Program-made: the position numbers and the translations under genes | From: a virus | IMG/VR virus record: IMGVR_UViG_3300031578_002305 | Coordinates: 1 to 23,600 of that record | Strand: one strand, 5' to 3' | Length of the DNA: 23,600 nt | Notes under the pieces: generated by a model | What the model saw: the letters and a program-made list of their open reading frames with translations, nothing else | The model's database searches: none | Told to the model about the DNA's origin: nothing | Part shown: positions 3,096 through 21,228 of the stretch, piece by piece | Numbering within the stretch: position 1 is the stretch's first letter | Layout of the letters: each line of letters opens with the position of its first letter

Positions 3096-3487
3096 AGCTG
3101 CGCTCCTAGGAGTTGTAGAGTTATCGAGCCACTTTCCTTACGACCACCACCAGAATTGGAGGATCTGGTGTCGATGCTGATATCAATGGGGTTCTCGCCA
3201 AAGATAGCATTCCACTGGTCGCCACGGAAGTCTGTTAGCTTAATTGAATCTCCTGTATACAGCTTGTAGAACTCTTCGATTTCTACCAGCTTCCCGCGTC
3301 CCAGATTCTCCCACGTAAAGATAAGAGTCTTCCGATTACTCGACTTAACATACGTTGATCGTGTCCCATCAATTGAAAGCTTGAAGTCCACACTAAGATC
3401 CCATCCCTCAGTATTTTCCAACTTGGGATTAGGGAGAATCAGTGTCGTAACTGGTGCGCTGAATGGCGCTTCAATGATCATGGTCAT
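3092..3487 (-). CDS. Small distal tail / minor tail protein
   Basis: A 131-residue, probably all-beta protein. LILPNPKLENTEGW is followed by alternating strands, then TWENLGRGKLVEIEEFYKLYTGDSIKLTDFRGDQW, here described as motif fragments: ENLGRGK, EEFYKLYTG and LTDFRGDQW. Proteins of this size and layout sit between tape measure and tip genes in siphophages and act as distal tail or tip-adaptor proteins (lambda gpM/gpL or Dit-like roles). The assignment here is by position and general appearance. The ATG overlaps the LamG-protein stop by four bases (ATGA) and its own stop overlaps the tip-protein ATG the same way. A Ser/Gly-rich loop (SSNSGGGRKESGS) lies near the C-terminus. No catalytic residues are apparent. 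Confidence 0.55.
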   Translation of the reverse strand: MTMIIEAPFSAPVTTLILPNPKLENTEGWDLSVDFKLSIDGTRSTYVKSSNRKTLIFTWENLGRGKLVEIEEFYKLYTGDSIKLTDFRGDQWNAIFGENPIDISIDTRSSNSGGGRKESGSITLQLLGAQL

Positions 3488-5790
3488 GGGACGAGCGTGC
3501 TCTGAATGTTAAGCTTTGCGCTATATTTACAGTCTCCTTCGTCAGAGACAGCAGAGTCAGGATTGATAATGATCCCCTCCCAAATCCGGGCCTCGTGGTC
3601 CGTGTATGTCACAAGCAGCCCAAGGCAATCTTTCAAAAAATCCAGAAGCTCTTGTGCTTTAGCTCTAGTCATCACTGAGATTCCAATAGAGTGCGTTGTC
3701 TGCTTCGGCCACTGTGAGTCTCGAACCAGCCTCGGAGTGCCACCGCGACTAATGTTTAGAGCACGGTCTACGTCTACTGATTCGCTGTTTCCAAAATCCG
3801 GATTGCGAAGAGTGATAGAGCTAGCACTGCAAACGAGAGTGATATTACTAGCCACACCAATCGTGATGACTGGCATCCCTGCTCCGAAAGGACTGTATTC
3901 GTGCCTGTCGCATGGGACATCAATGTATGCCACGACAGCCTGTCCGAAGAGGATATCGTTCTGGGCGACTGGGTTGATATCTAATTCAACGGCTACCGCA
4001 TGGTTGAAAAGGATATCGTTCTCGGTCCCCTTACTTGCTTCGGCAACAACGCTCTGGTCAAAGAGGATATTACTGATTAGGTGATCGCCACGTGAAGCCT
4101 CAGAGGTGAAGGCAATATCACTACTGAGACTCTCCTCAGTAGTCGGACCCATGTTCTGTGAGAAATTAACATTGGTTGTAACAGAGACGTTGATGGTTGC
4201 AGTCTTACCAACCGTCTGACTGAAGTTGATGTTTGTAGCTACGTTAATGACGATGACGTTATGCTGGACTTGTTGTTGGAACTCAATACTATTCGATACG
4301 GCTTTATCTAGTTCCCAGGCAGCGTTATGTGTAAAGAGTAGATCGCTGAACGGCGGTGTGCCATCTTCACCGAGAATGAACTCAATCGGTCCAGAGCGGA
4401 AGCGTTGGAATGTCTCAGGCTCAAACTGTTGGACTGGAGGATGATCGGCAGTCGTCGGTGCATTAAAGAGCGTGGCATTCTGATGGAGCATGATATCAAT
4501 GATGGGATCATCATTGTTATATATCGGAGCAAAGTAAAGAAGCTCGTCAGTCCTGACCAACAACGACGAGAACTCGTCAACACCAAGACTTGCAATCTCT
4601 GCTGCGTTGAAAACTGTTGAAAGGTTCCAAGTCGTTAGCTCTGCGATACGGCCTGACATATACTCATCAGGGGTGAGCTTGCTACTCCGTCCAATCGAAA
4701 GTGTATCCACGCCTGTGGGGGCAACCGCTGAACCACCAGGTGAAAGACCCTCATTCGCACCATCGAGGTAGACACGGATGTCGGTGGCTGTATTGAAGAT
4801 AGCGAGAACATGATGCCATGTATTAAGTAAGACGGCCCCACCGCTATCAGCAATCTCACTAACTGAAACATTGTCAACGATCTCGCCACGGAAGACAGCA
4901 GTATCTGTTCCCTGGACGGTCACGCTAATAGTGAAGCCAGTATTGAAATCGGCTGCGTCTGTCGTGATCCCGAAGACAGCATTAGTTACTGTGACTACAT
5001 TTGTAATTACCGAAGCACCGAAATCGATGTGGGCATCAAGGGCAATCTGTAGAGCGATCGCTACGGCATTCGCTGTATCGTCAGCAGCAATCCCAACTTG
5101 GATAGCAGTTAAGCCGCCAGGAGCGGGATCAACACTTCCACTATCAATTGAGAACCAAACATAGTAATCAGTCGTTGGTGACGAGAGTGTGAAGTATCCA
5201 TTCTCAAGAACGCCAGCAGCACCTTGGGTAGTTACTAAAACTGTGAATGTCGTATTGACATCTACAGCATCAACAACACTTCCAACAGCGGCGTTCGTAA
5301 CCGTGACTACATTTGTAATTACCGAGGCACCGAAGTCGATGTGGGCATCGAGAACAATTTGGAGAGCAATCGCTACAGCATTCGCTGTATCGTTAAGGGC
5401 AATCCCGACTTGGATAGCCGTTAAGCCACCAGGAGCGGGATCAACACTTGAACTATCAATCGAAAACCAAACATAGTAATCGGTTGTCGGAGATGAGAGG
5501 GTGAAGTATTTATTCTCTAAGCTACCAGCAACATCAGCAACAGTTGTAAAGTCAGTGACTTCCGGGAAGGCATTAGCCCCAGTTGTTACACTAGTGACCT
5601 CTCGCTTACGGCCATACAGACCTAACCTGTGGTAGTTATCCTCCGACGACGCATCTTGGAATGCAGCGAATGTTTGATCTATGTCGATGTCATCGAGATA
5701 GATCCAGCATCCAGTAGCAAATGGAAATGCTATTGCCGGGTTAGTGGCAAGTGCATACTGTAAAGATGCGTCGTCGAAGAGGATACTCAT
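3484..5790 (-). CDS. LamG/concanavalin-like tail protein with inserted duplicated domain
   Basis: This 768-residue tail protein probably binds glycan or the cell surface. Residues 1-62 and about 298-405 together look like one LamG (concanavalin A-like) fold. The second part holds the hallmark W-H-H (325-327), RVYLDG (339-344) and LSIGRSS, GRIAELTTWN (380-389). Between them lies an insertion made of two 104-residue copies of one domain (from 91 and from 195). Residues 482-625 contain eight short beta repeats of the kind NDILFNHAVAVE spaced 17 or 20 residues apart. The C-terminal domain (about 626-768, with YSPFGAG, ITLRNPDFGN, SRGG, RDSQWP and ARIWEGIIINP) looks like a tail-attachment domain. 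The start overlaps the sulfotransferase stop by four bases (ATGA). An adsorption role is inference from the lectin-like fold and position. Confidence 0.75.
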   Translation of the reverse strand: MSILFDDASLQYALATNPAIAFPFATGCWIYLDDIDIDQTFAAFQDASSEDNYHRLGLYGRKREVTSVTTGANAFPEVTDFTTVADVAGSLENKYFTLSSPTTDYYVWFSIDSSSVDPAPGGLTAIQVGIALNDTANAVAIALQIVLDAHIDFGASVITNVVTVTNAAVGSVVDAVDVNTTFTVLVTTQGAAGVLENGYFTLSSPTTDYYVWFSIDSGSVDPAPGGLTAIQVGIAADDTANAVAIALQIALDAHIDFGASVITNVVTVTNAVFGITTDAADFNTGFTISVTVQGTDTAVFRGEIVDNVSVSEIADSGGAVLLNTWHHVLAIFNTATDIRVYLDGANEGLSPGGSAVAPTGVDTLSIGRSSKLTPDEYMSGRIAELTTWNLSTVFNAAEIASLGVDEFSSLLVRTDELLYFAPIYNNDDPIIDIMLHQNATLFNAPTTADHPPVQQFEPETFQRFRSGPIEFILGEDGTPPFSDLLFTHNAAWELDKAVSNSIEFQQQVQHNVIVINVATNINFSQTVGKTATINVSVTTNVNFSQNMGPTTEESLSSDIAFTSEASRGDHLISNILFDQSVVAEASKGTENDILFNHAVAVELDINPVAQNDILFGQAVVAYIDVPCDRHEYSPFGAGMPVITIGVASNITLVCSASSITLRNPDFGNSESVDVDRALNISRGGTPRLVRDSQWPKQTTHSIGISVMTRAKAQELLDFLKDCLGLLVTYTDHEARIWEGIIINPDSAVSDEGDCKYSAKLNIQSTLVP
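3916..4347 (-). repeat. Eight short beta-strand repeats in the LamG protein
   Basis: The motif (S/T/N)(N/D)-I-x-F-x-(Q/H)-x-(V/A) recurs at residues near 482, 499, 519, 539, 556, 573, 590 and 610 (for example TNINFSQTV, TNVNFSQNM, SNILFDQSV, NDILFNHAV, NDILFGQAV). Spacing is 17 or 20 residues. Such periodic strands suggest a beta-solenoid or fibrous stalk; the fold itself is inferred. Confidence 0.75.
4897..5520 (-). repeat. Tandem duplication of a 104-residue domain (312-bp period)
   Basis: Two adjacent copies (about 5209-5520 and 4897-5208) encode almost the same domain: each starts LEN(K/G)YFTLSSPTTDYY, continues VWFSIDS(S/G)SVDPAPGG and runs through DAHIDFGASVITNVVTVTNA. The DNA copies differ at scattered, mostly third, codon positions, so the duplication is not brand new. 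The C-terminal 25 residues of the copies have diverged most. Confidence 0.9.
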
Positions 5791-6668
5791 TTAGCTGCCG
5801 CTGCCTCTTTCAATGCTGCAAGTTCCGCTAGACCCGGACCTTTGCGCTTGGAAGCCCGTGGCATCTCTGGCTCCGGGCGTGGAAGCTGGTAGTTAAAGTG
5901 CTGGTTGAACCAAGGGAAGCCTGCCATGATACTACTAGCCAGACCATCGCTGATGGTCTTAGGCCAGACTGGTGGACTGGCTTGAACCTTTCCACTCCCG
6001 GTATGTGGGAACTTATTGTTATAGAGGTGGTCAGGATCTGTTGCTGTGTTGACAACATTCTCGAAATCGTGCTCGAAACTTGGCTGCTCAATGTAGCAAT
6101 AGAGTCTCTCCATCATCTCCATGGGATGGCGAGCTAGATCTTCATACTTGACAAAGAACACCTCTTGCTTCCGATTGAGAATATCCTCAATACCTATCAA
6201 GCAAGACCCAATCATACCCTCGTCTGAGAACATGTTGATTGCTTTCTGGACAATACCAACCCCAGGGGTATCGTCGAGGAGTGGGAACTTACGATGTTGA
6301 TTCTCGAAGCTGCAAAAGACTTCACGCAGGTCTCGAACGGTCACAATGACTTTGGCGTCCGGGTAGACCTGCCTTAGTGCGAGGATGTTCATCGCCCAAC
6401 CACGTGACTTGCAGAAAGGCACCTTGTCGGTATTGTTCCATGCGTCACAAAAAGCTTTTGCTGATCTGTATAGCTTGTCCTCTGTTTCTTCGCGGCGCTC
6501 TGGAACTAGGCCACCTTTGACATCTGGGCTGGTGCTCCAGATGTTGACCATCGCTCGTAAGATACCGGGCAAGGGGTTTGTATGCTCGACCTGAAAGTCA
6601 GGATTTTGAGCAAGGATATTACATAGCAGCGTTGAGCCGCTGCGAGGAAGTCCCATAATAATGTTCAT
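5787..6668 (-). CDS. PAPS-dependent sulfotransferase family protein
   Basis: A 293-residue member of the PAPS-dependent sulfotransferase superfamily, which moves sulfate from 3'-phosphoadenylyl sulfate to a hydroxyl or amine of a glycan, protein or small molecule. The 5'-phosphosulfate loop is at residues 6-15 (GLPRSGSTLL). The 3'-phosphate site is at about 109-121 (VTVRDLREVFCSF), with Arg112 and Ser120 in the expected places. A KYEDLARHP motif follows at 174-182. No signal peptide or membrane span is seen, so it acts in the host cytoplasm or is carried in the virion. Residues 264-293 form a Pro/basic then Ala-rich tail (RASKRKGPG, AALKEAAAAK) beyond the usual core. It overlaps both neighbours by four bases (ATGA), tying its translation to tail genes. 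Its substrate is unknown. A capsular or fibre glycan is inference. Confidence 0.88.
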   Translation of the reverse strand: MNIIMGLPRSGSTLLCNILAQNPDFQVEHTNPLPGILRAMVNIWSTSPDVKGGLVPERREETEDKLYRSAKAFCDAWNNTDKVPFCKSRGWAMNILALRQVYPDAKVIVTVRDLREVFCSFENQHRKFPLLDDTPGVGIVQKAINMFSDEGMIGSCLIGIEDILNRKQEVFFVKYEDLARHPMEMMERLYCYIEQPSFEHDFENVVNTATDPDHLYNNKFPHTGSGKVQASPPVWPKTISDGLASSIMAGFPWFNQHFNYQLPRPEPEMPRASKRKGPGLAELAALKEAAAAK

Positions 6669-7031: not shown

Positions 7032-9200
7032 TTATCCTCTTACTTCAAGAATGTGGATTTCGGAAAGCCATTCCACAGTCTGCGCTGCAGTTCCAGTGAC
7101 ACGGGCCACGATGTCATTCCCAACAATAGTGATGTCCATAGTCCAGGCTGGAGCACCCTGACTAGAATCCAACGTCCACGCCTTCGGAGCACCTACGAGC
7201 ACCGGAGCACCAGCTGCGTTTCGATAGACCAGGGTGTTGGTGAGTCCGAACACTGCGTTGAACCCGTCAACGTCCGTGCGCCTCGCCACAGCAAAGCCCC
7301 AAACGGAATATGCCTTGTCCGCTTCTGTCGGAAAGGTGAGGACCGTCGTCTGCGTTGCGTCGGTCGTCTCGATATGTGTTGTGACCCACCCACTCTGGTT
7401 TGGCTTCGTGGACGCTATGTTGTCGTCAGCGGAAAACGCACGATGCCCACCAACCCAAGCTCGAGCGCGAATACCCTGAGCCATCGTGGAACGCCACGGG
7501 ACGTTGCTCAGTGGGTAGGACTTGCAGAAATCCCCTACCGCAAAGTTCCCACGGAACGTGTTGTAGGCTTGCGTCGTGACCTTGTAGAGGTAGTTATTGA
7601 AGCCGAGTCCTACGTTCGCTCTGTTGCTTACTCGGTTGCCAGTGCCAATAGCGACCGTGCCTCCGTAAACAAAGTTTACTCCGCTGTAGCAGTAGTTCTC
7701 ATTTCCGATGGCAGTCTGACCGTAGTTGTAGGTGTTCCCCTGGATGCGGTTCTCGAATCCGACTGCTGTGTTCCTCAGGGAGTCTCCTGTGGAGAAGGAT
7801 GCTACCGAGTTGTAGTGTCCGACGATGACGTTGTGACGCTGGTATTGTGTAGCATTTCCGATATCCCCAAGCACATTGCCTTTGCCTCCGATGAGAATAT
7901 TCTCATGGCTCGTGCCATAGATGTAGGAGTCTCCCTGCCCCAAGAAGGTGTTGTAGTTAGCACTAAGACCACTATACCCACGGATGCCAGCGCGTGAGCC
8001 ACCACTAACCATGACCAGGTTACCGTAGTGGTTACCTCCTCCTTGGTTGTCGAGCCCAGCCCGTCCATCTCTCTGCGCCTTGATGACGACGTTGTAAAAG
8101 CCTAGGTCTGTGGGATCTTGACCGTGCGCTGCGTGCATGAAGTAGTTACCGATAACGATGTTGTATCTACCTCCCATGCGGTTTTTGTTGCCGATACTGG
8201 TGTTGTATTTCCCGGCAGCCTGGCTCTCCTTACCAATGAGAATCCCGCCGACGGACACCAGTGAATTTGAGTTCCCCCTCCCGATGGTGATGAGGTCGTT
8301 GCTCGTATGAATAGCAGAAGAAACAAACCCGCGACCGATGCAGATGTGGTCTGGGGACTCTGACCTGGCTCCATAGCCAATCGCGATGCCGTTGGTCGAG
8401 AGCACCGTGTGCGTGAATGCGCCTCGTCCAATAGCGATGTCGTTCGCTGCACCAGCGTCCGCGCCGCGTCCGATAGCAATGCCGTCCGTGGCACGCGCTA
8501 TCGCATTCCGCCCGTGAGCAAGGGTGTCGGCGAATCCAGCATTCGCCGCGTCACCGAAAGCCCAGGAGTTCGCACCGGCTGCAGATGCGTTGCTGCCATG
8601 AGCTAGAGACTCAAGACCAGCGGCCTCTGGTGCCGGACTGCCCTTACCGATGCCAGCACGGGTGCCAACACCGTCGGTCCAGAATCCTCCGCCACCACCG
8701 CCACCGGGTGCAGCATCCTGCTCAATGACGACTGTCATTAGCTGGGCAACACCAACCATATCGTCCGAGGTGTCGTTACCATGACGCCTAACTGCTAAGC
8801 GAAACTGGTCACCCTGAACAACACCATCTATCTGGGCAGATGTGAGAATGATAGCTGTCTCGGTCGTAACACCAGTTACAGCATCGGTGGCGTCTACTGC
8901 AAAAACTCCAGCAGCAAAGCTATCAACATCGAGATCATCAACACCTGGTGCGTGCTTCTCGAAGGCAACCTCCCAAACAACACTCCCGCTTGTGGCGACT
9001 CCAGCCATCCAAGTTAGGAGGATGGTAACATCCCCACTAGCATAGACGGTAGGCATGTTGAAGGTATAGAACGTCTCAGTTACTACACCCGCTGGAAAGA
9101 CTGCTACGCGGTGTCCATTACGGACAGCGAAAGTTGGCCTATTGGTTCCACTAACAAAGTCAGCTGCAAGTGGACCGGCTCTGAGTAGTGAGGTAGGCAT
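7032..9200 (-). CDS. Tail fibre with YadA-like beta-roll repeats
   Basis: A 722-residue fibre-type protein. Residues 1-163 form a beta-sandwich-like N-terminal domain (GDQFRLAVRRHGND near 130-143) likely used for tail attachment. A run of glycines (166-172) is a hinge. From about 195 to 590 come repeats of about 14-16 residues of the type DGIAIGRGADAGAANDIAIGRGAF, here seen as GIAIGRGA, DIAIGRGA and GIAIGYGA. This resembles the left-handed parallel beta-roll head of trimeric YadA-type adhesins, so a trimer is expected. The C-terminal domain (604-722) is another beta domain (FAVARRTDVDGFNAVFG, DITIVGNDIVARVTG) that could cap the fibre or bind receptor. I see no S74-type self-cleaving chaperone. 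The ATG overlaps the upstream TAA (TAATG). Receptor binding is inferred from the fold and location. Confidence 0.8.
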   Translation of the reverse strand: MPTSLLRAGPLAADFVSGTNRPTFAVRNGHRVAVFPAGVVTETFYTFNMPTVYASGDVTILLTWMAGVATSGSVVWEVAFEKHAPGVDDLDVDSFAAGVFAVDATDAVTGVTTETAIILTSAQIDGVVQGDQFRLAVRRHGNDTSDDMVGVAQLMTVVIEQDAAPGGGGGGGFWTDGVGTRAGIGKGSPAPEAAGLESLAHGSNASAAGANSWAFGDAANAGFADTLAHGRNAIARATDGIAIGRGADAGAANDIAIGRGAFTHTVLSTNGIAIGYGARSESPDHICIGRGFVSSAIHTSNDLITIGRGNSNSLVSVGGILIGKESQAAGKYNTSIGNKNRMGGRYNIVIGNYFMHAAHGQDPTDLGFYNVVIKAQRDGRAGLDNQGGGNHYGNLVMVSGGSRAGIRGYSGLSANYNTFLGQGDSYIYGTSHENILIGGKGNVLGDIGNATQYQRHNVIVGHYNSVASFSTGDSLRNTAVGFENRIQGNTYNYGQTAIGNENYCYSGVNFVYGGTVAIGTGNRVSNRANVGLGFNNYLYKVTTQAYNTFRGNFAVGDFCKSYPLSNVPWRSTMAQGIRARAWVGGHRAFSADDNIASTKPNQSGWVTTHIETTDATQTTVLTFPTEADKAYSVWGFAVARRTDVDGFNAVFGLTNTLVYRNAAGAPVLVGAPKAWTLDSSQGAPAWTMDITIVGNDIVARVTGTAAQTVEWLSEIHILEVRG

Positions 9201-9775: not shown

Positions 9776-12700
9776 CTAACGTCGCGGGCCACTGTTTGGT
9801 CTTAATTGAACTGTCCCTGTTCGGATACCGCGATTTATTTCCGCTACGACTTCTCGCGCTGTTACTTTTGGATCCGTAGATTCCTCAATGGTAATCGTGA
9901 CGGGGCCTACGTTTAGTGCCTGTTGCACTCCAGGAAGCGAGCCACGAGCGGAGAACGCTCCAAAGGGATTGACTTGTGTTGTCTGGATTGTAGAGCGCGT
10001 TCTCTGTTCGCCTGCTGGACGTTCAAGTTTCGTCTGTGACAGCGCTCGGACAAGAGCATCACGTGAGTTTCGGTCGTCGCGAAACGGTTGGATAGGTTTT
10101 GAGGGACTGAGTTGGTTACTGATCTCGCGCTGTTGTTTAATAATGTCTAGCGCCTTCTGGCGTTCCTCGACATCCTCAAAGCTAATCCGTGCACGTCGGA
10201 ATTGAAGTGTCCGAATCTCTTCGTCAATCAATTCTTGAGCCTTTGCATCTGCAACTCGTCGCTCGAGCACTTCCTTTAGCTCGCGCTCAGCGTCTGCCTG
10301 GCCTCGCCCAATTTGCTTAAGAAGTTCAGGGGAGACACGTGACTCAGGAGTTCCAGATTGGGTTGGCGATTTAATACCTAGTCCAAATGGGCTTTGGGCA
10401 GCATCCGCAAGAACTTTAGTATTGGCAGCAATTTGCTCAGAAACTGTTAACTGCTTCTGCTGTGTCGGACCCTCTCCACCTTGTTGCGAGGTTTCGGGCC
10501 GTGGACCATCCTTGAAGGTTCCGGACTTTGGACCATCCTTGAGGGTTCCGGGCCGTGGACCAGCTAGGCGCTGTCCTGGGCGTAGTCCTTGCCGTGCAAG
10601 AGCTTTCTCTTGCTTCTCAGCCTCTCGCCTTGCTTTCTGGAAAGCCACCTGCCGTTCGTTTTCTTGCTTAAATTGTTCAGCGATTGCATTTTGCTGAAGC
10701 TGGATTGATGGAGCACCTCGCCCGAGGCGGATGGTAGTATCAATCTCACGTCGGGGAAGTGTCTTCGGCAGCTCCTCCCTTTGAGGCGTTACATTTACTG
10801 GAGTCTTAGTCTCCGCTTGTGCACGAATACCCGCGAGACGTGCTTCGAGTGTTGGGGCAGCTTTTAGGCGCTCAGCATTTTCTGCTGCAATCCGCACGGC
10901 TGCAACCGAACGGGCTGCCCCTGCGGCACGACGCGTTCTCTCACGTTCTTCGGCCTCGACAGTCGCTTTCGCCTGCTCTACAGCAATGCCAGGGACTTCT
11001 TCCTTAAATGCCTTTGCGAAGTTCTTGGCAGCTTCTGTCCCAGTCTTCTTCGAACCTTTAGCGATGGTAGCATCAATCTCACGAGTTAGACCCACGACCG
11101 GCGGTGGCGTAACTTCACCAGGAACGGTTCCGATATTAGCAGGAGCATCGAAGATCCCTTGACGTTTGATGATCGCAGCAGATGCCTTCTTGATGTTCTC
11201 AGCAAAATCGAGAGTCTTAGTCGCTGCGTTCTCAACCTCTTGAGTCTCACCGGCCTTTGCCGCAATGGCAATATCAATAAGTTTATTCTGTAGTTGAAGG
11301 GCAGCGATCTGAGCCTGGCGTGCCTGATCCTCTTTTGTGACTCCCTGGATATCCCCTAGTCGGGTTGTGTCATTTTGATTAGCAAGGAGGCGACCGAATG
11401 CTGCCTCAAGCTCCACAACATCAGGAGCGCTACGAGCATCGACCTGTCCGAAATTTCCTCCTCCTGCGAGAAGAACCTTTTTCAGCTCGTTAAAGCGGAT
11501 GTTGAACTCTTGAAGCAGCGAAGGATCTTGAACACCTGTCTGTAGTTGCTCAGTCAGCTCGCGGAGGCGAGTAACATTCTCCTGAACGCTCACGACAACA
11601 GCGTTTTGAGCCTTGATCTGCCTCTGGAGAAATTTCTCCAGGGACTCGGTGGGTCCCCTGGTCGGGAGAGCACCCGGTGATCCAGGAGTGCTCGTCTGTG
11701 GTGCCCCAAAGATCTGTTGTTGCTGGCGCGATTGGGCGATCCCCGCATTAGTCTCGCCCACCCCGGATGTCTGGAATCCCTGAAGTGCGTTCTCGAAGTT
11801 CTGGAGATTTCCTGCGAACTCTGTGAGAGCCGAACTACCACCAATGCGGATCCCTTCAGCGGCCGAGAGCGCTTCCTTGAGATCCTTCTGTTGGAGCTTA
11901 AGATTCGCGACCCGATCATCCTCTGCACGCTTCGTAAGTTCGGCGCGTGTAGCAGCCTCTAGATTGAGAGCACGCTCTCGCTGGATGCCTTCGGCTTCTG
12001 CGCCGCCACCGATGAGAGTCTGGAGCGAACGGATACGTGCCAGACGCTTCTGCTGTTCACCAACTTGCTCAACGAGCTTGTCCCGTTCCTTAGTTGCCAG
12101 AACTTGCTTCTGGTTGAAGGCATCAGCTTCCTTACTGATGGTCCTGAATAGAAACTGTGCGATCTCTAGGCGGCGTTGACGTAGCCCCTCTTCCTTTGCC
12201 CGCTCCTCGTTGAGGCTTCTAATTGTTTCGAGACGTTGACGCTCCTCGGCAAAAGCCTGGAGACCCGCCAAGCGAATCTGCTGCTCACGCGCGGCAGACT
12301 TCTCAATCGCCTCCTGCTCTCTACGAACCTTTGCAATTTCCTTGAAAATCTTATCGAAGTCTTCTCCAGTGTTTGCTTCTCCGAGAGACTCTTGAAGATC
12401 TGAAAGTTTCTTAGCAGCTTGGAGTTGAGCCTCGGACCCATTCTTAACAAGCTTCTGCTCTCTTTGAATTGCAGCAATGCGCTGCTCAAGAACTTCACGC
12501 GCTCCACGCCCACTTACACGGGTGAGCTTGGCACGGAGATCAGCAAGTTCAACCTCATTCTGCACCTCAGCGTTGCTGACCTTGATGCTCGCAGCAATAC
12601 GCTTCTCAGTAAGTTCTTTCAAGAGATCGTTCTGGAGTTTGAAGGCTGCGAGGCTCCCTTCCTCCGCCGCCGCTTGCGTCTTAGCTTGTGCCTGTTCGAT

Positions 12701-15700
12701 GGCAGCATCGAGAACACGTGCTGACTGCCCTGCTCCAGCCCCGATTAGGTCGATTCCAAGACGCTTCTTGTTTAGCGCCTGGAAAGTCTTCTCAATATCG
12801 TCCGTGGCTGCCTTGGCGTCCTTGGTCGCCGCTTGAACAGCTTTCTTGGTGTTGGCAATCCGAGCAGTTAGGCCCGCGTTGAAGGAACTAGTTGCAACGG
12901 TAAGTGAACGTTCAAGCTCTTTAGACTGTGTTCCGACCTCGCTGATCAGATCCGTTGCAGCACGACGTTGGAGAGCGATGGCTCCCAGCTGCTTCTTAGT
13001 CGTCTCTTCGATCGAGTCAACAACAAATGCAGTTTGCTTCGAGAGGATCGCTCGCGTTTTCTTGGCCGCGTCCTCACGACGCTGCAAGACTGCGAGGTTA
13101 GCATCCTCAACCGCCTTAAGTTCCTCCTCTGATATACTCAGAATGAGTGCAGAGAGTGCTTCACCAGCAATAACGGCAGCAGTTGCAATTGCAAGGATCG
13201 GGATTTTACCTAGGGCCGCTCCAAAGCTAAGGCCAGCAACTCGGGCTGCCTTGAAAGCAAGAGCAAGGTTTGTAAGACCGAGGGCGGCGCCAGCAAGAGC
13301 TGCACCGGCAAGCACCCGTCCAATAGTCCGTCCAAGAGCATTGAGAACACTAATCGTCTTAGTGACGATACTATCGATGCCGCCCATCTCTTTAATGAAC
13401 CTAACGATGGCTTCAATTGCAGGAGTTCCTAGCTCCTTCTCAAAGAGGTTCCTGGCTGTGGCTCCCATGATCGCCAGCTGCTGACCCGTGCTCTGGATGA
13501 CAAGCTGAGTCTTCTCACCAAATGCTTCAGTAGTTTGTTCTCTAAGTGCCTTAATAGCTTCTTCGGCATCTTGCGCGCCCTTACCACTAAGAGCAAGAGC
13601 ACCAACGATAGCGCGAATACGTCCGAAGCCTTCAGCGGTGCCTTCAACAGTATTGCCAAGTTCGTTGATGAAAGATGTAAGAGCCGGAATAAATCCACGG
13701 GCATCAATGAGTGCTCTACCAGTAGCGACACCAAGCTTGGTGAGAGCCTCTTCACCAGCCGCTGTGGGCTTGAGAAGTTTAAGAATGACGTTGCGGATAG
13801 CTGTGATGGCCTCATCAGCCTTGAAGCCTTGCCGCGTGATCGCGTCAATAGATCCAGCAACCTCTTCGAGACTAACACCAAGCTGGTTCGCAGGGACAGC
13901 AACACGACCAAGGATACCGGAGAGATCCTCAACCCGCAGAGCACCAAGTTCAACAGCCTTGAAGAGTTTTGCTGCGACTAGTTCAGCCTGTTCAGATGGG
14001 ATTCTGAATGAATTGATAGCAGACGTTAGGAGGTCGGTAGCTGTTGCGGCATCCGTAGCACCGGTAACGGCAAGTTGATTCGCAGCGGTAAGGAACCGGA
14101 GTGCCTCTGCACCCTTAATAGCTTGGTCGCTAGAGTTCTTAATCTGGCGCGAAATAATCTGGTAAAGACCATCGGCTTGGGAGAGAGTATCAATACCGAA
14201 CGCACTACTTAAGGCTCGTAAGGAATCGGCCCATTCTTCGGTTGTTCTTGTGCTCGTCCCCGCAATGGTATTGACCTGGGCAATCTTGATTGAAAGTGTA
14301 GCAGCCTGGTCAGCGGCTGCTGTTATTGCAGTGACTAATCGGAAGGCCCCACCGATGAGTAAACTAATACCGATAAGATTAGCAAGACCCTTAATTGAGG
14401 AACCAAGACCTTTGGTCGCTACGTTAGCCTGATCCGCTCCAATCGCGACTTGCTTTTCAGCCGCAGCTAGCTCGAGTGCAGCCAACTCGGCTTGAGTAAG
14501 GTTCCCGGTGAACTTGAGTGTGCCAGCTCGCGCCTGAGCGATGGCGACCTCTACCTGCTTAAAGGCTCCAACGCTAGTTGCGGCAAACTTCCTAACTGCC
14601 ACCTCAGCCTGGAGGAAGTTGTTGATTTCCTGCTTACCAGCGGTGCCTGTAGCTAGGCGCTGCGCGACAACAGGTGTGCGGGTCTGTATTGTATTCGCAC
14701 GTCGCAGGTTTTCAAGTCTGATGAACTCAGCAGCAACACGCTTCTCATCCGCAATCCGTTGTGCTGTTTGCTTCTTGAGTCCTGCGAGATTGAGTGTCCG
14801 TGCTTCAAGCTCTCCTGATATTCTAGTAGCAATGATTCTTTCTTCGTCTGTAATTTTCTGAATAGTCAGTCGTCTGAACTCGGCGGCGACACGTTGCTCG
14901 TCCGCAATTCGTTGGATCGTTTGCTTCTTGAGGCTAGCGCGGTTAAGCTTCTCAGCTGTTCGCTCGGCAGCGATGCGAGCATCAATAACTTTCTGCTGGT
15001 CAGCAATTTGCTGTGCCGTTTGTTTGGTGAACTCAGCGGCGACACGCTTCTCATCCGCAATTCGTTGGATCGTTTGCGCCTTGAGACTAGCGCGGTTGAG
15101 ATTTCCTGCTTTTAGCTCCGCAGCGATGCGAGTGTCAATAACTTTCTGCTGGTCAGCAATTTGCTGTGCCGTTTGTTTGGTGAACTCAGCGGCGACACGC
15201 TTCTCATCCGCAATTCGTTGGATCGTTTGCTTCTGGATGGCAGCATCACGTCCGGCAGTCTGTGCAATGAACTCAGCAGCAACACGTTTCTCATCCGCAA
15301 TCCGGATGTTCCCCTCTCGCTTGATCGCCGCGATGCGGGCGGCTTCTCGCTGCTTATCAAGAGCTTGTAGCTTGCCCTGAGTAGTGTCCTCGTCCTTGAA
15401 TCTTTGACCCTTGGCCTTCTCAACCCCTGGCGCACGAGCAGCTACACCTGCGATGCTAGCTCTAAGTGCCACAGCACGGGCGCGAAGGGCAGCGACTTCA
15501 GCATTGATGACTGGGACGGCTGAGGCACGAGCAGCTTTTGAAGCTTCAATTGCTTTTGTTGCAAGAGCCTCAGCCTCAGTATTGAGACGCGTTCCCTTAA
15601 CACGCGCTGCTGCTGCCGCACCGGCATTCTTTTGAGCAACGGCAAGAGCCTCTTGGGCTGCTGCCGCTTCGAAGGCGGCAGCCGCTTCAATTCGGAGGGC

Positions 15701-16090
15701 CTCAGCCGTCGCGACTAGTTGAGTATCTTGTTTGATACCGGATGCAGCCGCAAGCGCGTCCGCCCTAGCAAGGAGAGCAGTTGCTTCAGCGGCGAGTGCG
15801 GCTTGGGATGCCAGCACCTTCAAGTTATCAGATTGGGCTCGGACAACTGTCGAAGTCTGGGTGATCTCATCTCCCAGGTTGCGCCAAGTTGTGGTAACCC
15901 TATTACCGGCTGCGTCTATTTGAGTAAGCGTGCGGACGAGGACATCCCCACTTCTGTTGAGCGTAGACTGGTCTTTGACAACTTTTGCGGTGACTTTTTC
16001 GAAATTTACAAACGCGGTAACCGCCTGGTCAATAGCACTGATCAGGCTAGTAGCATCACCTCTTAAATTAACTTGTGGGTCAGTAGCCAT
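9776..16090 (-). CDS. Tail tape measure protein (TP901 type)
   Basis: At 2104 residues this is by far the largest protein. It sets tail length and leads DNA ejection in siphophages. Residues about 622-777 carry the TP901-type core: a helical segment with ALSSAFGIDTLSQADGLYQI, ISSAI-type repeats, VEDLSGILGRVAVPANQLGV and a trailing AAGEEALTKLGV. Hydrophobic stretches at about 560-603 and 918-983 are candidates for membrane insertion during ejection. The rest is Ala/Gln/Arg/Glu-rich helix, including a 51-residue tandem repeat at about 270-460 and a low-complexity PRPGTLKDG-type repeat near 1840-1865. The C-terminus (VGPVTITIEESTDPKVTAREV) is typical of these proteins. At 0.15 nm per residue it predicts a tail near 315 nm. 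The start codon overlaps the upstream stop (TGATG) and has GGGAG upstream. Confidence 0.95.
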   Translation of the reverse strand: MATDPQVNLRGDATSLISAIDQAVTAFVNFEKVTAKVVKDQSTLNRSGDVLVRTLTQIDAAGNRVTTTWRNLGDEITQTSTVVRAQSDNLKVLASQAALAAEATALLARADALAAASGIKQDTQLVATAEALRIEAAAAFEAAAAQEALAVAQKNAGAAAAARVKGTRLNTEAEALATKAIEASKAARASAVPVINAEVAALRARAVALRASIAGVAARAPGVEKAKGQRFKDEDTTQGKLQALDKQREAARIAAIKREGNIRIADEKRVAAEFIAQTAGRDAAIQKQTIQRIADEKRVAAEFTKQTAQQIADQQKVIDTRIAAELKAGNLNRASLKAQTIQRIADEKRVAAEFTKQTAQQIADQQKVIDARIAAERTAEKLNRASLKKQTIQRIADEQRVAAEFRRLTIQKITDEERIIATRISGELEARTLNLAGLKKQTAQRIADEKRVAAEFIRLENLRRANTIQTRTPVVAQRLATGTAGKQEINNFLQAEVAVRKFAATSVGAFKQVEVAIAQARAGTLKFTGNLTQAELAALELAAAEKQVAIGADQANVATKGLGSSIKGLANLIGISLLIGGAFRLVTAITAAADQAATLSIKIAQVNTIAGTSTRTTEEWADSLRALSSAFGIDTLSQADGLYQIISRQIKNSSDQAIKGAEALRFLTAANQLAVTGATDAATATDLLTSAINSFRIPSEQAELVAAKLFKAVELGALRVEDLSGILGRVAVPANQLGVSLEEVAGSIDAITRQGFKADEAITAIRNVILKLLKPTAAGEEALTKLGVATGRALIDARGFIPALTSFINELGNTVEGTAEGFGRIRAIVGALALSGKGAQDAEEAIKALREQTTEAFGEKTQLVIQSTGQQLAIMGATARNLFEKELGTPAIEAIVRFIKEMGGIDSIVTKTISVLNALGRTIGRVLAGAALAGAALGLTNLALAFKAARVAGLSFGAALGKIPILAIATAAVIAGEALSALILSISEEELKAVEDANLAVLQRREDAAKKTRAILSKQTAFVVDSIEETTKKQLGAIALQRRAATDLISEVGTQSKELERSLTVATSSFNAGLTARIANTKKAVQAATKDAKAATDDIEKTFQALNKKRLGIDLIGAGAGQSARVLDAAIEQAQAKTQAAAEEGSLAAFKLQNDLLKELTEKRIAASIKVSNAEVQNEVELADLRAKLTRVSGRGAREVLEQRIAAIQREQKLVKNGSEAQLQAAKKLSDLQESLGEANTGEDFDKIFKEIAKVRREQEAIEKSAAREQQIRLAGLQAFAEERQRLETIRSLNEERAKEEGLRQRRLEIAQFLFRTISKEADAFNQKQVLATKERDKLVEQVGEQQKRLARIRSLQTLIGGGAEAEGIQRERALNLEAATRAELTKRAEDDRVANLKLQQKDLKEALSAAEGIRIGGSSALTEFAGNLQNFENALQGFQTSGVGETNAGIAQSRQQQQIFGAPQTSTPGSPGALPTRGPTESLEKFLQRQIKAQNAVVVSVQENVTRLRELTEQLQTGVQDPSLLQEFNIRFNELKKVLLAGGGNFGQVDARSAPDVVELEAAFGRLLANQNDTTRLGDIQGVTKEDQARQAQIAALQLQNKLIDIAIAAKAGETQEVENAATKTLDFAENIKKASAAIIKRQGIFDAPANIGTVPGEVTPPPVVGLTREIDATIAKGSKKTGTEAAKNFAKAFKEEVPGIAVEQAKATVEAEERERTRRAAGAARSVAAVRIAAENAERLKAAPTLEARLAGIRAQAETKTPVNVTPQREELPKTLPRREIDTTIRLGRGAPSIQLQQNAIAEQFKQENERQVAFQKARREAEKQEKALARQGLRPGQRLAGPRPGTLKDGPKSGTFKDGPRPETSQQGGEGPTQQKQLTVSEQIAANTKVLADAAQSPFGLGIKSPTQSGTPESRVSPELLKQIGRGQADAERELKEVLERRVADAKAQELIDEEIRTLQFRRARISFEDVEERQKALDIIKQQREISNQLSPSKPIQPFRDDRNSRDALVRALSQTKLERPAGEQRTRSTIQTTQVNPFGAFSARGSLPGVQQALNVGPVTITIEESTDPKVTAREVVAEINRGIRTGTVQLRPNSGPRR
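10496..10562 (-). repeat. 27-bp low-complexity repeat in the tape measure
   Basis: Two full units and one half unit of a 27-base repeat encode the 9-residue series PRPGTLKDG, PKSGTFKDG, PRPETSQQG. It is in frame and probably forms a flexible Pro/Gly linker near the C-terminal part of the tape measure. Confidence 0.85.
14780..15238 (-). repeat. 51-residue tandem repeat in the tape measure (153-bp period)
   Basis: Two near-identical units (about 15086-15238 and 14933-15085) and a third degenerate one (about 14780-14932) encode QTIQRIADEKRVAAEF followed by QQIADQQKVID, RIAAE and LNRASLK. The DNA string ctcagcggcgacacgc begins at 15185 and again at 15032, exactly 153 bases apart. Further partial copies of IADEKRVAAEF flank the block on both sides. 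The composition predicts a long helix or coiled coil. Confidence 0.9.
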
Positions 16091-17391: not shown

Positions 17392-17949
17392 CTAGACGCT
17401 AGGCTGGAGTGACCTTACGATGGAGGCCGTCTTGGAGTTACACTTGCCGGTAACCGCGATGGTTCCAGCAGACAGATCATGGTCCAACGACTCATACCGG
17501 AAGTCCGGCAAAGTGATGAACTCTTGCTCCTGAGTAGCGGCACCGCTGCCGCAGACAGGAACGTTTTCGAGAACGATGTCGAGTGCGAACGGACGACAGG
17601 CATCCGGATCGCTAGAAATCCAGGTCGACGCGTTGTTGAGATTCTTCAGAGCGTCTTCGACCGTAGGCGGAACACCCGCCGAGTCAAGATTGCCAGTGAT
17701 GAACTCCCACAGGAGATCAAAGCTGACGTCCATCGGAACTTCGTCACCCTCACGAACCTCATCAATACGGCCACGATCGAGAGTATACTCCACCGTGCGG
17801 GTCTCACTGTAAGTGAGGTTACCTTCACCGATCTTGATGAGAATGAAGTTCGGCGTTGGTGACGTGCCGTCTTGAAGCTTCAGCTCGACCCGCTTAAGGT
17901 CGATCTGAGCGAAAACCGGAACCCGGATGGGTGCCATCAAAAATTGCAT
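17392..17949 (-). CDS. Major tail tube protein
   Basis: About 185 residues. The start at 17949 (MQFLMAPIRVPVFAQ) is preferred over an upstream in-frame Met at 18003 because GGAGAGG lies seven to ten bases before it and the upstream gene only ends at 17966. The segment NFILIKIGEGNLTYSETRTV, then YTLDRGRIDEVREGDEVPMDVSFDL, is a pattern I know from siphophage tail tube proteins. The remainder (ALDIVLENVPVCGSG, LPDFRYESLDHDLSAGTIAVTGKCNSKTA) is consistent with tube-fold strands. It lies between the putative tail terminator and the chaperone, the canonical tube position. Its first 15 residues match those of the major capsid protein, an unusual feature discussed in the findings. The stop is followed by a perfect palindrome. 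Confidence 0.85.
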   Translation of the reverse strand: MQFLMAPIRVPVFAQIDLKRVELKLQDGTSPTPNFILIKIGEGNLTYSETRTVEYTLDRGRIDEVREGDEVPMDVSFDLLWEFITGNLDSAGVPPTVEDALKNLNNASTWISSDPDACRPFALDIVLENVPVCGSGAATQEQEFITLPDFRYESLDHDLSAGTIAVTGKCNSKTASIVRSLQPSV

Positions 17950-17965
17950 TGGATGTCCTCTCCTT

Positions 17966-18451
17966 TTAAGAGGTTTGTAGAACCATTTTGTAATGACCTT
18001 CAACGGATGCTTGCATCAGCTTGGTCTGAACGTCGATCTGTCCAAAGTGGTTAATCTCCACGTAGTCACGACTTTCGCGATTCTGTAGAAGTTGTAAACA
18101 ACCCACAAAGGACTGATCATCCTCTATACCATTTCCAAATTTGAATACGCTAATGGCTGGCTCGAAAGCCGCCGCTGCAATACCCACCGATTGATGGATT
18201 CTGTGATAGTTAGAGTCGCTCATAGTGGACTGGACAAGTATATTGAACTCGATATCTAATATCCAACAGTCCTTGCTTACCTCTCGCAAGTTAGGGCCAT
18301 CCATGCGTAGCTCAAAGAGATCTTTCTCTAGGCGCGTTGCTCGATGTTGACCTTCAATAAACAACGGAATGCCCGCTGCTGTTGCAGCAGCAAGAAAATG
18401 CTTGCTTGCTGTTGCAAAAATCCACCTAGGCCAATTTGGATTTGAACTCAT
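17966..18451 (-). CDS. Putative tail terminator / tail completion protein
   Basis: About 161 residues from the ATG at 18451, which follows the upstream TAA directly (TAACATG). An in-frame Met at 18478 would overlap the preceding gene and is less likely. The sequence begins MSSNPNWPRWIFATASKHF and contains LFIEGQHRATR, FELRMDGPNLREVSKDCWILDIEFNILVQS, seen as ELRMDGP and WILDIEFNILVQ. It ends with YVEINHFGQIDVQTKL and EGHYKMVLQTS. An alpha/beta protein of this size next to the stopper and upstream of the tail tube is the usual layout for the terminator that caps the tail tube before head joining. The family name is inferred from position and strand/helix pattern, not from a decisive motif. Confidence 0.6.
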   Translation of the reverse strand: MSSNPNWPRWIFATASKHFLAAATAAGIPLFIEGQHRATRLEKDLFELRMDGPNLREVSKDCWILDIEFNILVQSTMSDSNYHRIHQSVGIAAAAFEPAISVFKFGNGIEDDQSFVGCLQLLQNRESRDYVEINHFGQIDVQTKLMQASVEGHYKMVLQTS

Positions 18452-18452
18452 G

Positions 18453-18890
18453 TTATCCGACGGTGTCACTGGAAGCAATTCCCTGGACTCTTACCAGGAA
18501 ACCCTTCCTTTGTTCTAGGAAGTCAATGGTCTTGACTTCATAGCGTTGGTTGTCAAACTCGATGTGGTCATCATTATTAAAGACAAAGTCTTTAGGTAGG
18601 TCTTTAGCGTCGAACAACACTACCCGTGTCTTACGGTCGAAAAAACCGCCACTCACAAAGTTGTTATTCGCTGCAATAAAGGTGAGGTCATAGACAAAGC
18701 TTCGGTCAATACTGTCTGGTAGAACAGGTGCTCTCCGAACATTGAGGACGTTATAGTTTCGTAAAATTTCTCCCGTTTCAACATTATTCGTTTGACTTAC
18801 ATATTGATAGATCGTCACCGGGAGGCCAAACTGCCGCTTCAACCTGTAAAGGATAACAGTGATCTGTCTTAACACATTCTGAAACGCCAT
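18453..18890 (-). CDS. Putative head closure (stopper) / head-tail connector protein
   Basis: This 145-residue protein is the first gene behind the major capsid gene. It has a helical N-terminus (MAFQNVLRQITVILYRLKRQFG) and then mostly strands: VTIYQYV, GEILRNYNVLNVRRAPVLPD, FVYDLTFIAANNNFVSGGFFDRKTRVVLFD, DLPKDFVFNNDDHIEFDNQRYEV, with a C-terminal strand pair. A beta-barrel of this kind with a loop near NNNF is consistent with stopper proteins that plug the portal channel. The strongest Shine-Dalgarno in the window, AAAGGAGG, lies four bases before its ATG. This may restore initiation behind the stem-loop that follows the coat gene. Assignment is by position and fold pattern. Confidence 0.6.
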   Translation of the reverse strand: MAFQNVLRQITVILYRLKRQFGLPVTIYQYVSQTNNVETGEILRNYNVLNVRRAPVLPDSIDRSFVYDLTFIAANNNFVSGGFFDRKTRVVLFDAKDLPKDFVFNNDDHIEFDNQRYEVKTIDFLEQRKGFLVRVQGIASSDTVG

Positions 18891-18912
18891 TCGACCTCCT
18901 TTCTGAAGGCTC

Positions 18913-18938
18913 GCCGAGGGATGTTGCCATCCCTCGGC
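18913..18938 (-). terminator. Stem-loop behind the major capsid gene (possible attenuator)
   Basis: GCCGAGGGAT and ATCCCTCGGC form a perfect 10-bp stem with a 6-base loop, 16 bases behind the coat gene stop codon. No T-run follows, so it is not a classical intrinsic terminator. Attenuation, RNA processing or protection of the coat message from 3' exonucleases are all possible. It lies in the 64-base gap before the next gene, the largest gap in the window. Confidence 0.5.
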
Positions 18939-18954
18939 TTACCCTTCACCGTTA

Positions 18955-20361
18955 CTACGCGAGCATCACCGCGCCAAGATTGATGTCGAGAACCTTCACG
19001 CCGCAGAGCAGATCGGCGGTCACCAGGTGACCCTGCTTGTTGCCGTCATAGGTCATGACGATGCGCATCGACAGGCCGTTATACGACGCGACGAAGCTAA
19101 GAGCACCAGTCCCGGCAGCCGGAGCAGCCAGAGGACGAGTGACCAGAGCCAACGCCTGCCGGTGGAAGGCAAAGTTGTATTGCCCAGCCGGACCAGGCGA
19201 GATAACGGCGTTGTCAGCAGCGGCTGCAGCCAACGGACGCCCGAGAAGCATCGAGATGGCCGTCGGAGTGCTAAGCACGCCCTGCGTCTCACCAGTCGAA
19301 TCACCGAGGCCGATGAGACCACCAGTGTTCAGCGCACCACCACCGAAGCCGTCGATCACCAGCTCCTTAGCGTAGCCAGCCGCGTAGCCAGCCACGAAGT
19401 TCACCGCACCCTGAGTATACTCAGTGATGACGGCATTGTCGAGAACAGCACTCGCCAGGGGCGGAGTGATGGTGAGCGACGTCGGAGTGCCAGCACCAAC
19501 CGCCGAAACGATACGGTGAGGAATTTCGTCACCAGCGATGGTGATGAACGTCCCAGGAACAACCGTTGCACCAGCGATGCGACCATCCACAGTCAGGACC
19601 GTAGCGCCCTTAGCGTAGCCACCCACGTTGTCAATCAAGATGTCAACGGCAGTCGCCGTGCCAGCCGCCTCAACGTGCGGAGTGTTCTGGCTCATCCAGT
19701 GAAGGATGCCATACTTCAGTCCGAGCGAACCCTCACGCAGAGCCGTGCCCTCGTCGCCAACCTTATCGGCGGTAACCCAGGAGTCGATACCCAGAAGATC
19801 AGCCTCGGTCTGAGGCGTCACAATCAGGTTACGACCACCCATCGGCACCTTCAACTCATTCATCTTACGACGAATGTCGATGACGGTTGACTTCGTCGGC
19901 GTGACACCCAGCTGACCAACCGCGTTCGGAAGGAACTGGTAAGCCTGCGACAGAACAACCTCGTCGACCATCTGAGCCATAGAGAGCATGGCCGGGGCGA
20001 GCAGGTTATCCCGCAAGCTCTGGAAGCCCTTCGACTCTTCGCCATCCTTGACGAGGAACGAAACGTGAAGATGCTGGTTCAGAGGAACCGGCACATTCGT
20101 GACGATGGCATCTTGAACCGTGACGCTATCAGCATCCGTCTTACGCTTACCAACAAAGTTGGCGGGCAGACGAGTGTTGACGATATCGCCAAAGTTCGCG
20201 ATCTGGTTCTCGAAGTCACGATGGACGAGGTTAGCCGCCACCATGTTGTTCTCCAGAAGCATGAGCCCTTCCTGGGCCCAAATCTCTGGAGTGAACGCGT
20301 TCTCAAGATCGTTCGCGAACACCGGCACCCGAATGAGTGCCATCAAAAGATTGAATTGCAT
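18955..20361 (-). CDS. Major capsid protein, P22 coat-like
   Basis: About 468 residues of an HK97-fold coat protein related to phage P22 gp5. The start is taken at 20361 (MQFNLLMALIRVPVFAN), because GGAG lies exactly six bases upstream. The ATG at 20373 overlaps the scaffold stop (TAATG) but has no ribosome site. Family-like features are the helical N-arm and early region (TPEIWAQEGLMLLENNMVA, LVHRDFENQIANFGD), the central helix (MAQMVDEVVLSQAY), an inserted beta domain at about 246-316 (ATVLTVDG, TFITIAGDEIPHRIVSA) and the C-terminal signature NFAFHRQALALVTRPL with LLCGVKVLDINLGAVML. Between the inserted domain and NFAFHRQAL lies an extra Gly/Ala-rich stretch of about 75 residues flanked by the repeated motif PLAxAxxDNAVI. 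The gene follows its scaffold and is trailed by a stem-loop. Confidence 0.92.
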   Translation of the reverse strand: MQFNLLMALIRVPVFANDLENAFTPEIWAQEGLMLLENNMVAANLVHRDFENQIANFGDIVNTRLPANFVGKRKTDADSVTVQDAIVTNVPVPLNQHLHVSFLVKDGEESKGFQSLRDNLLAPAMLSMAQMVDEVVLSQAYQFLPNAVGQLGVTPTKSTVIDIRRKMNELKVPMGGRNLIVTPQTEADLLGIDSWVTADKVGDEGTALREGSLGLKYGILHWMSQNTPHVEAAGTATAVDILIDNVGGYAKGATVLTVDGRIAGATVVPGTFITIAGDEIPHRIVSAVGAGTPTSLTITPPLASAVLDNAVITEYTQGAVNFVAGYAAGYAKELVIDGFGGGALNTGGLIGLGDSTGETQGVLSTPTAISMLLGRPLAAAAADNAVISPGPAGQYNFAFHRQALALVTRPLAAPAAGTGALSFVASYNGLSMRIVMTYDGNKQGHLVTADLLCGVKVLDINLGAVMLA

Positions 20362-20367
20362 TGTTTT

Positions 20368-20371
20368 CTCC
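20368..20371 (-). promoter_or_regulatory. Ribosome binding site deciding the coat protein start
   Basis: GGAG stands six bases before the ATG at 20361. It overlaps the junction TAATGGAG, so the alternative ATG at 20373 would itself lie inside this site. This favours the MQF start. Confidence 0.75.
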
Positions 20372-20372
20372 A

Positions 20373-21215
20373 TTAGAAGTTGATTTCGCCTGCCTTGCGA
20401 GCCTTACGATAGGCCACAGGGTCTGCGGCAAGGTTTTTGAGGTCCGGCTTCTTGCCCCCAGGTTGAGAGCGCAAACCCGCACCACCAGATCCCTCACCTC
20501 GAAAGAGGTTTAGGTATTCGTCTTCGTCTTTCATCCTCTTGACCGCATCCTCTGGGGAGAGATCAAGAGTAACCGGCTTCCCTTCCTTATCCTTAGCCTG
20601 ATATTTCACCTTCGGGCTAAGTTGTCCAGTCGGTTGACCTTCATCATCCAAAACCTCAACGAGTTGAGTAGTCCGGCCGAGAATAGCGACAATTTGCTTG
20701 GGAGAAAACGCATTGCTCGCAGCAGCCGCGTCCGTTAAAGAACGCTCAATAGTTGATTCGGTGTAACGCTGTGACCAAGTATCTCTCTCGGCGGTCAGCG
20801 AGTCAATAGCCAGTTGATGAGCTTCCTTTTGCTTCTTAGCAGCACGCTTGGCTTGCTCATCTTTCGTTCGCATCTCATTGGAAATCATCTCAAGACGACT
20901 GTCCAATTCCTGACGCTCGGTTGCAGTCAGCTGGGCCTTGGACCGCAAAGCGTTCGCTTCGTCCACAGCCTTCTGAACCGTGCGCTGATGCTTCTTCTTC
21001 TCGGTAGCCAGGATCCGATTGATCTCTGCCTGTTGCTCGTCCGAGAACTTCTTGGTTCCGGCTGCAGGAGGTGAAGTGTCAGTGTCAGTGTCAGTGACGA
21101 TGTCACCATCAACCACACCATCAGTCCCGCCGTCAGCGTCACCGTCTTCACCTTCGAAGACAGGACACCTTACCGGATTCATATAGAGCATACTGTTATA
21201 GTCACTGAATCGCAT
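20373..21215 (-). CDS. Head scaffolding protein
   Basis: About 280 residues from the ATG at 21215, preferred to an in-frame Met at 21260 because GGTGGAG precedes it by six bases. The protein is highly charged and largely helical, as scaffolds are. An acidic Asp/Gly/Thr-rich stretch (about 21-47, with DGDADGGTDG and TDTDTDT) follows the N-terminal MLYMNPVRCPVF. A long coiled coil (about 57-150, with ILATEKKKHQRTVQKAVDEAN and RAAKKQKEAHQLAIDSLTAER) comes next. A segment with KQIVAILGRTTQLVEVLDDEG and a C-terminal basic part (KARKAGEINF) complete it. By analogy it fills the procapsid, directs coat assembly and leaves or is degraded on maturation. It lies immediately upstream of the coat gene. 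Its N-terminus resembles those of the coat and tube proteins. Confidence 0.85.
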   Translation of the reverse strand: MRFSDYNSMLYMNPVRCPVFEGEDGDADGGTDGVVDGDIVTDTDTDTSPPAAGTKKFSDEQQAEINRILATEKKKHQRTVQKAVDEANALRSKAQLTATERQELDSRLEMISNEMRTKDEQAKRAAKKQKEAHQLAIDSLTAERDTWSQRYTESTIERSLTDAAAASNAFSPKQIVAILGRTTQLVEVLDDEGQPTGQLSPKVKYQAKDKEGKPVTLDLSPEDAVKRMKDEDEYLNLFRGEGSGGAGLRSQPGGKKPDLKNLAADPVAYRKARKAGEINF

Positions 21216-21221
21216 TTCAAT

Positions 21222-21228
21222 CTCCACC
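21222..21228 (-). promoter_or_regulatory. Ribosome binding site deciding the scaffold start
   Basis: GGTGGAG stands six bases before the ATG at 21215, the same spacing as at the coat gene. The upstream ATG at 21260 has no such site and lies inside an inverted repeat. Confidence 0.7.

Follow-up and report, generated by a model that had tools for sequence, protein, structure and literature searches.

A genome-specific N-terminal tag common to head and tail proteins of uncultured phages, and a papain-fold peptidase as its possible reader

Why should the coat and tail tube proteins of a virus, which are otherwise unrelated, begin with the same peptide? The question was raised by the window, the whole stretch of DNA analyzed here, which is a 23.6 kb virus fragment in IMG/VR. 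Its minus strand encodes, in this order, portal (cut by the contig end), adaptor, two small ORFs, scaffold, coat, stopper, terminator, tube, tail chaperone, and tape measure; the tube and some of its neighbors were named from gene order. The body of the coat (18955..20316, on the minus strand as are all features described below) is of the P22 type, matching the P22 coat family (PF11651, 8.5e-33, above the cut-off; PHROG 283, 1.5e-66). The body of the scaffold (20373..21155), comprising an acidic low-complexity stretch and then a coiled region, matched the head scaffolding family PHROG 206 (9.1e-14). No family match was found in Pfam or PHROG for the tube (body, 17392..17910), and its name rests on gene order alone. 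The N-terminal tags in front of these bodies are MQFNLLMALIRVPVF in the coat (20317..20361; junction before ANDLE), MQFLMAPIRVPVF in the tube (17911..17949; junction before AQIDLK), and MRFSDYNSMLYMNPVRCPVF in the scaffold (21156..21215; junction before EGED). Wrong start codons as the source of the tags were ruled out by the continuous reading frames of the tags and by Shine-Dalgarno-like sequences, namely GGAG at 20368..20371 for the coat start (20361), AAGGAG at 17960..17965 for the tube start (17949), and GGAG at 21222..21225 for the scaffold start (21215). When the N-termini of all ORFs in the window were scanned, the coat, tube, and scaffold scored 43-53 while the next best scored 23. 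Thus, the peptide reported in the earlier note to be shared by the coat and tube is real and lies far above chance. The same note had treated the scaffold as the weaker match; a match is present, but it is no lesser case, since across the family the tag is borne most constantly by the coat and scaffold together (see below).

Relatives of the coat and tube were retrieved by scans of IMG/VR (15 and 53 loci, respectively) and by alignment scans, in which 529 coat and 479 tube relatives were confirmed and the best 80 of each were kept. The tag was found to replace Met1 of an otherwise ordinary protein. Untagged coats start with M-A-N-[DSLN], as do cultured P22-type coats, untagged tubes with M-A-[QRK]-[IV], and untagged scaffolds with M-A-D or M-S-T. 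The untagged tube of L005, MAQIDIK, starts at the very junction of the window tube. Counted back from the junction, the profile of the tag comprises K/R at -7, I/V at -6, W at -5, P/T/A at -3, V/A at -2, and Y/F at -1, and the residue after the junction is A in the coat and tube and E/D in the scaffold. In composition, the tag is beta-prone and aromatic, with hardly any acidic residues. In the AF2 model of the coat, residues 1-19 had pLDDT below 50 and are predicted to be disordered, implying that the tag is accessible.

More than 100 related uncultured phages bear an N-terminal tag of ~8-20 residues, which is alike among the proteins of a single genome and changed beyond recognition between genomes. 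For instance, L134 has RHRGWYG/SADD in the scaffold, RARRWFG/ANDND in the coat, RTREWFG/AQID in the tube, and RSRYWYG/EES in the portal (the slash marks the junction), and L145 has YQIKWVG/ED, YQIKWIG/AND, and YEIKWVG/AQI in the scaffold, coat, and tube, respectively. Likewise, the scaffold and coat of L161 begin with FVIADARPIAH/DD and FIVADARPIAH/DND, the coat and tube of L153 with RFVPSLFTPAH/ANS and RFVPSLFTPAH/ARID, and the tube and portal of L131 with KLRAYNVFDPAY/GQID and KLRAHKIFDPAY/FPH. The pattern M[QR]F..LM..IR.PVF put forward in the earlier note fits the nearest relatives of the window and no others, yet each genome shares a sequence of its own internally. The scaffold and coat are tagged almost always, the tube in about half of the phages (50 of the 96 in which a tube was in reach, among 105 distinct tagged coats), the portal in at least 11 genomes (L134, L131, L111, L112, L125, L136, L155, L162, L212, L038, and G005), and the tape measure in two phages (L148 and L175). 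In L005, the tube is untagged while the coat and scaffold stay tagged, and the tube tag is thus dispensable. A strict all-or-none rule of tagging is contradicted by L256 and L299, in which the scaffold alone is tagged and both the coat and tube are untagged. Neither the coat nor the scaffold is tagged in L129, L015/L283, L254, G049, and L253. No isolate of the family was found among the phage records. As a separate observation, the scaffolds of L109, L126, L133, L137, and others carry acidic low-complexity repeats (DPPAG, DGGDGG, GEGG) right after the tag, which differ between phages.

In the coat tree, tagged and untagged members alternate; six changes must be assumed for the untagged state, and well-supported branches force three or more of them. 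The tube of L074 begins with MNPLYLAPAMLICF/ARIEL and the coat of the same phage with MNPLYLATAMLICF/AND, while the other tubes of that tube lineage are untagged. Judging from these sequences, the tube of L074 gained the tag of its own genome, which is a second gain.

We compared the tags in pairs within and between genomes. The coat-scaffold similarity, calculated for 44 representatives with coat identity below 60%, was 24.4 within a genome and 9.4 between genomes, and a value as high as the observed one arose in 0 of 20,000 permutations. The corresponding values were 28.8 and 11.8 for the coat and tube and 24.0 and 11.6 for the scaffold and tube, and again none of 20,000 permutations reached them. 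In some genomes, e.g., L014 and L050, the automatic procedure placed the scaffold junction ahead of its proper position, which lowers rather than raises the similarity. The N-termini of the adaptor, stopper, and terminator, used as controls in the same test, gave no excess (p = 0.73-1.0), ruling out a generic N-terminal composition as the cause. Independent evolution after an old duplication would have made the values within and between genomes equal, and the excess within genomes speaks against it.

In the window, the codons of the IRVPVFA block are att cgg gtg ccg gtg ttc gcg in the coat and atc cgg gtt ccg gtt ttc gct in the tube, that is, four of the seven differ and all four are synonymous. 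The conclusion drawn from this block in the earlier note, selection on the peptide rather than copying of DNA, was borne out across the family. At identical residues of the coat and scaffold, 170 of 400 codons were identical and 173 were expected from codon usage; for the scaffold and tube, 62 were identical and 60 expected. Synonymous sites are thus saturated while the peptide is held, so the selection is on the peptide and not on the DNA or RNA. A few pairs look recently copied (6 of 7 codons in L025/L026, 7 of 8 in L107), and copying may therefore seed new tags. We are highly confident that the tag serves for recognition and co-evolves as such, whether read in trans or like with like.

What could read such a tag? 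Comparison of the core genes yielded a protein of ~150 aa with a Cys-His-Asp pattern. Its AF2 model had a pLDDT of 95.9, and Foldseek with this protein returned staphopain (3.9e-4), the C39 domain of PCAT1 (TM 0.58), and a phage C39 protein (6.7e-6). In the alignment, His and Asp are invariant, Cys is present in all trimmed rows but one, and most rows contain Q-x(4-6)-C, i.e., the oxyanion Gln before Cys. The protein is thus predicted to have a papain-like fold with Cys-His-Asp and, in most rows, the oxyanion Gln, as in clan CA / C39 peptidases; the peptidase activity is inferred. None of 19 members of the peptidase matched a described family in Pfam or PHROG by sequence, no sequence match was found in PDB, and searches with two of the peptidases gave no match to an isolate. 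The gene sits in the early region, outside the head genes, in the conserved order polymerase, VRR-NUC, NYN, peptidase, sigma-like, and ligase. No protease was noticed in the head module among the listed genes of G005, which were checked by inspection only. Another early protein of ~900 aa, containing a DUF5906 domain (1.1e-12), is conserved in nine tagged genomes (899 aa in G024; also G022, G009, G005, G006, G004, G001, G002, and G023).

With a cut-off of E ≤ 0.01, 24 of the 41 records searched contained the peptidase; G004 was the only larger tagged contig to lack a match, and the five untagged isolate genomes had none. A six-frame HMM search detected it in all tagged genomes, G022 included, in which the contig extends over the site; the contigs ending before the site are the window, G001, G002, and G004, among others. 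As the window is one of them, the enzyme is only inferred for the window phage. In the three untagged genomes covering the site, G045, G017 (of which the scaffold start is ambiguous and the scaffold hence not clearly untagged), and G049, the peptidase was missing, and these three provide one independent comparison on well-supported branches. G049 (72.9 kb) is sister to the tagged L013 and keeps full synteny with the sigma-like, NYN, VRR-NUC, and polymerase genes, but the peptidase is gone. L299/G055, with the tag on the scaffold alone, has a diverged copy of the peptidase in which C, H, and D are kept. The sigma-like and NYN genes are likewise absent from some untagged genomes. The divergence of the peptidase was correlated with that of the tag (partial Mantel r = 0.48, significant), but the DNA polymerase gave an equal value (0.50). 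The co-divergence is thus not specific to the peptidase, and we dropped it as proof of contact between the peptidase and tag.

We propose that the tag is a genome-specific recognition sequence added before residue 2 of several virion-assembly proteins, and that its uniformity inside a genome would follow from the need for all copies to be read by a single trans-acting factor. The likeliest reader would be the phage's own small papain/C39-like cysteine peptidase, which may bind the tag core [KR]-[IV]-W-x-[PTA]-[VA]-[YF]-/-[AED] and remove the tag. Such a cut would leave the N-terminus of the Met-processed untagged relatives (A-N-D in the coat and A-Q-I-D in the tube), and the removal would license the proteins for assembly. 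The identity of the reader, the cutting, the cut site, and the purpose of cutting are all inferred. We see the chances as evenly balanced for the tag being a cleavable leader that the peptidase reads and removes; cleavage has not been shown. Conservation in the tag spans far more residues than a protease subsite would, which leaves room for a reader that binds without cutting. A handle for a chaperone or protease, a removable leader, and a contact site had been listed in the earlier note; the choice has narrowed, with the co-occurrence of the peptidase favoring a leader read by a protease, but remains undecided. It is a distinctly more speculative proposal, and on the present evidence a doubtful one, that each lineage marks its scaffold, coat, portal, tube, and tape measure with an N-terminal tag of its own, a co-diversifying password, and that a fast-changing cognate papain-like peptidase reads it, so that no parts but the phage's own are licensed for assembly.

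The tag could instead be retained and work by contact of like with like, with identical hydrophobic aromatic strands pairing with each other or docking in one site of an assembly partner. Identity within a genome would then require no third party, the beta-prone and aromatic, nearly acid-free composition would suit such strands, and the constant pair, coat and scaffold, must meet. We regard this as unlikely, because the tube and tape measure are tagged though they do not meet the scaffold, the scaffold alone is tagged in L256 and L299, the tag is predicted to be disordered in the lone coat, and the co-occurrence of the peptidase is left unexplained. Somewhat less likely still is that the tag is bound by something of the host, be it a chaperone, a protease, or a compartment, and that its sequence tracks the form which this factor takes in each host. 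Uniformity in each phage with variation between phages is what such a ligand would display, and several relatives reside in Planctomycetota contigs, one of them beside bacterial genes. Nevertheless, this explanation would need the factor to diverge strongly between related hosts, untagged relatives sit within tagged clades, and the phage peptidase is not accounted for.

Another phage protein (an assembly chaperone, a quality-control or an anti-interference factor) might read the tag, the peptidase being a linked bystander. The absence of the sigma-like and NYN early genes from some untagged genomes and the equal co-divergence of the DNA polymerase are in line with a bystander; nevertheless, no small enzyme with suitable biochemistry was found other than the peptidase, and G049 lacks it while keeping the sigma-like, NYN, VRR-NUC, and polymerase genes. 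We give this possibility less weight than either contact of like with like or a host factor. Finally, the peptide could be a by-product of an RNA or DNA element (for translation initiation or regulation) or of fresh duplication, for which only the recently copied look of the L025/L026 and L107 pairs can be cited. Codon identity at the chance level contradicts it, the upstream regions are not common to the tagged genes, and we can hardly credit it. For the preferred reading, a leader read by the peptidase, the comparison with known systems is as follows.

The nearest kind is the maturation of phage heads. In T4-type and giant phages, one phage protease removes N-terminal propeptides of unrelated structural proteins, including the coat and portal; gp245 of SPN3US, which cuts after AXE, has eight head proteins as substrates and takes off propeptides of 20-254 residues (PMC10052503). 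Some propeptides in phage maturation are short (20-24 residues), and those of T4 guide proteins to the prohead core and bring in chaperonins (PMC10052503). As in the prohead-protease systems of the T4, HK97, and SPN3US kind (e.g., T4 gp21 and SPN3US gp245), several structural proteins share an N-terminal recognition sequence in the phages studied here. In contrast, prohead proteases have a known protease fold and are encoded in the head module, while our candidate is of the papain/C39 type and encoded in the early region; their substrates are head proteins only, while the tube and tape measure are tagged here as well. Furthermore, cleavage in T4 and SPN3US occurs at a three-residue motif (AXE), whereas the whole tag is common and phage-specific here and its cleavage is not shown. 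The tag system may thus work like proteolytic head maturation, albeit failing two of its defining features, one being the protease, which differs in fold and in genome location, and the other the restriction to head substrates. In adenovirus maturation, several precursors of the capsid and core are processed by AVP (PMC4246237). AVP is alike in being a viral cysteine protease with several precursors and differs in belonging to a eukaryotic virus, in its short cleavage motif, and in the absence of a shared N-terminal tag; there is no evidence for kinship between the two systems. C39 peptidase domains, such as that of PCAT1, remove the N-terminal leader peptides of bacteriocins. The candidate resembles the PCAT1 domain in the fold match given above but is free-standing with no ABC transporter, and most tags end with F or Y in contrast to the double glycine of C39 leaders. 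The capsid targeting sequence of T4 internal proteins is a short N-terminal peptide common to unrelated proteins, directing them into the head. It is similar to the tag as a short N-terminal peptide on unrelated proteins of one phage, unlike the tag, which is borne by tail proteins too and diverges in concert between phages. In the open-licence literature, to which the search was confined, no N-terminal tag was found that head and tail proteins share and that co-diversifies. To our knowledge, no phage has been described in which unrelated head and tail proteins are under one concertedly renewed N-terminal tag.

The tag system looks like a new way to mark or license virus parts for assembly. 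The tag pattern predicts one trans-acting reader, for which the unannotated papain-fold peptidase is a testable candidate. If this candidate is correct, it would represent a new class of maturation enzyme in tailed phages, extend processing to tail proteins, and offer natural matched pairs of tag and enzyme for orthogonal protein processing; why the password changes so fast would then be in question. If each lineage indeed licenses its own parts only, the phage would be shielded from mixed assembly with co-infecting phages or from satellites borrowing its parts.

Relatives were found in contigs of Planctomycetota MAGs (444 and 290 kb) and in a contig of an Anaerolinea MAG; L074 also lies in a Planctomycetota contig. 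In the 444 kb contig (L072 / G022:C1), the phage genes are followed by genes for a heavy-metal P-type ATPase and a DUF2397 protein. As bacterial genes adjoin phage genes there, it is probable that Planctomycetota carry at least some members as prophages.

Four genes of the window, all on the minus strand, are also worth recording. The tape measure (9776-16090) is 2104 aa long and contains several copies of a coiled repeat (QTIQRIADEKRVAAEFTKQTAQQIADQQKVIDARIAAE). A tail-region protein of 722 aa (7032-9200) has AIGRGADAGAANDIAIGRGA-type repeats resembling the head repeats of trimeric autotransporters. An ORF in the tail gene module (5787-6668) starts with MNIIMGLPRSGSTLLCNILAQNPDF and is sulfotransferase-like by reading, and the protein encoded at 3484-5790 has a near-perfect internal duplication (the ENGYFTLSSPTTDYYVWFSIDSGSVDPAPGGLTAIQVGIA region).
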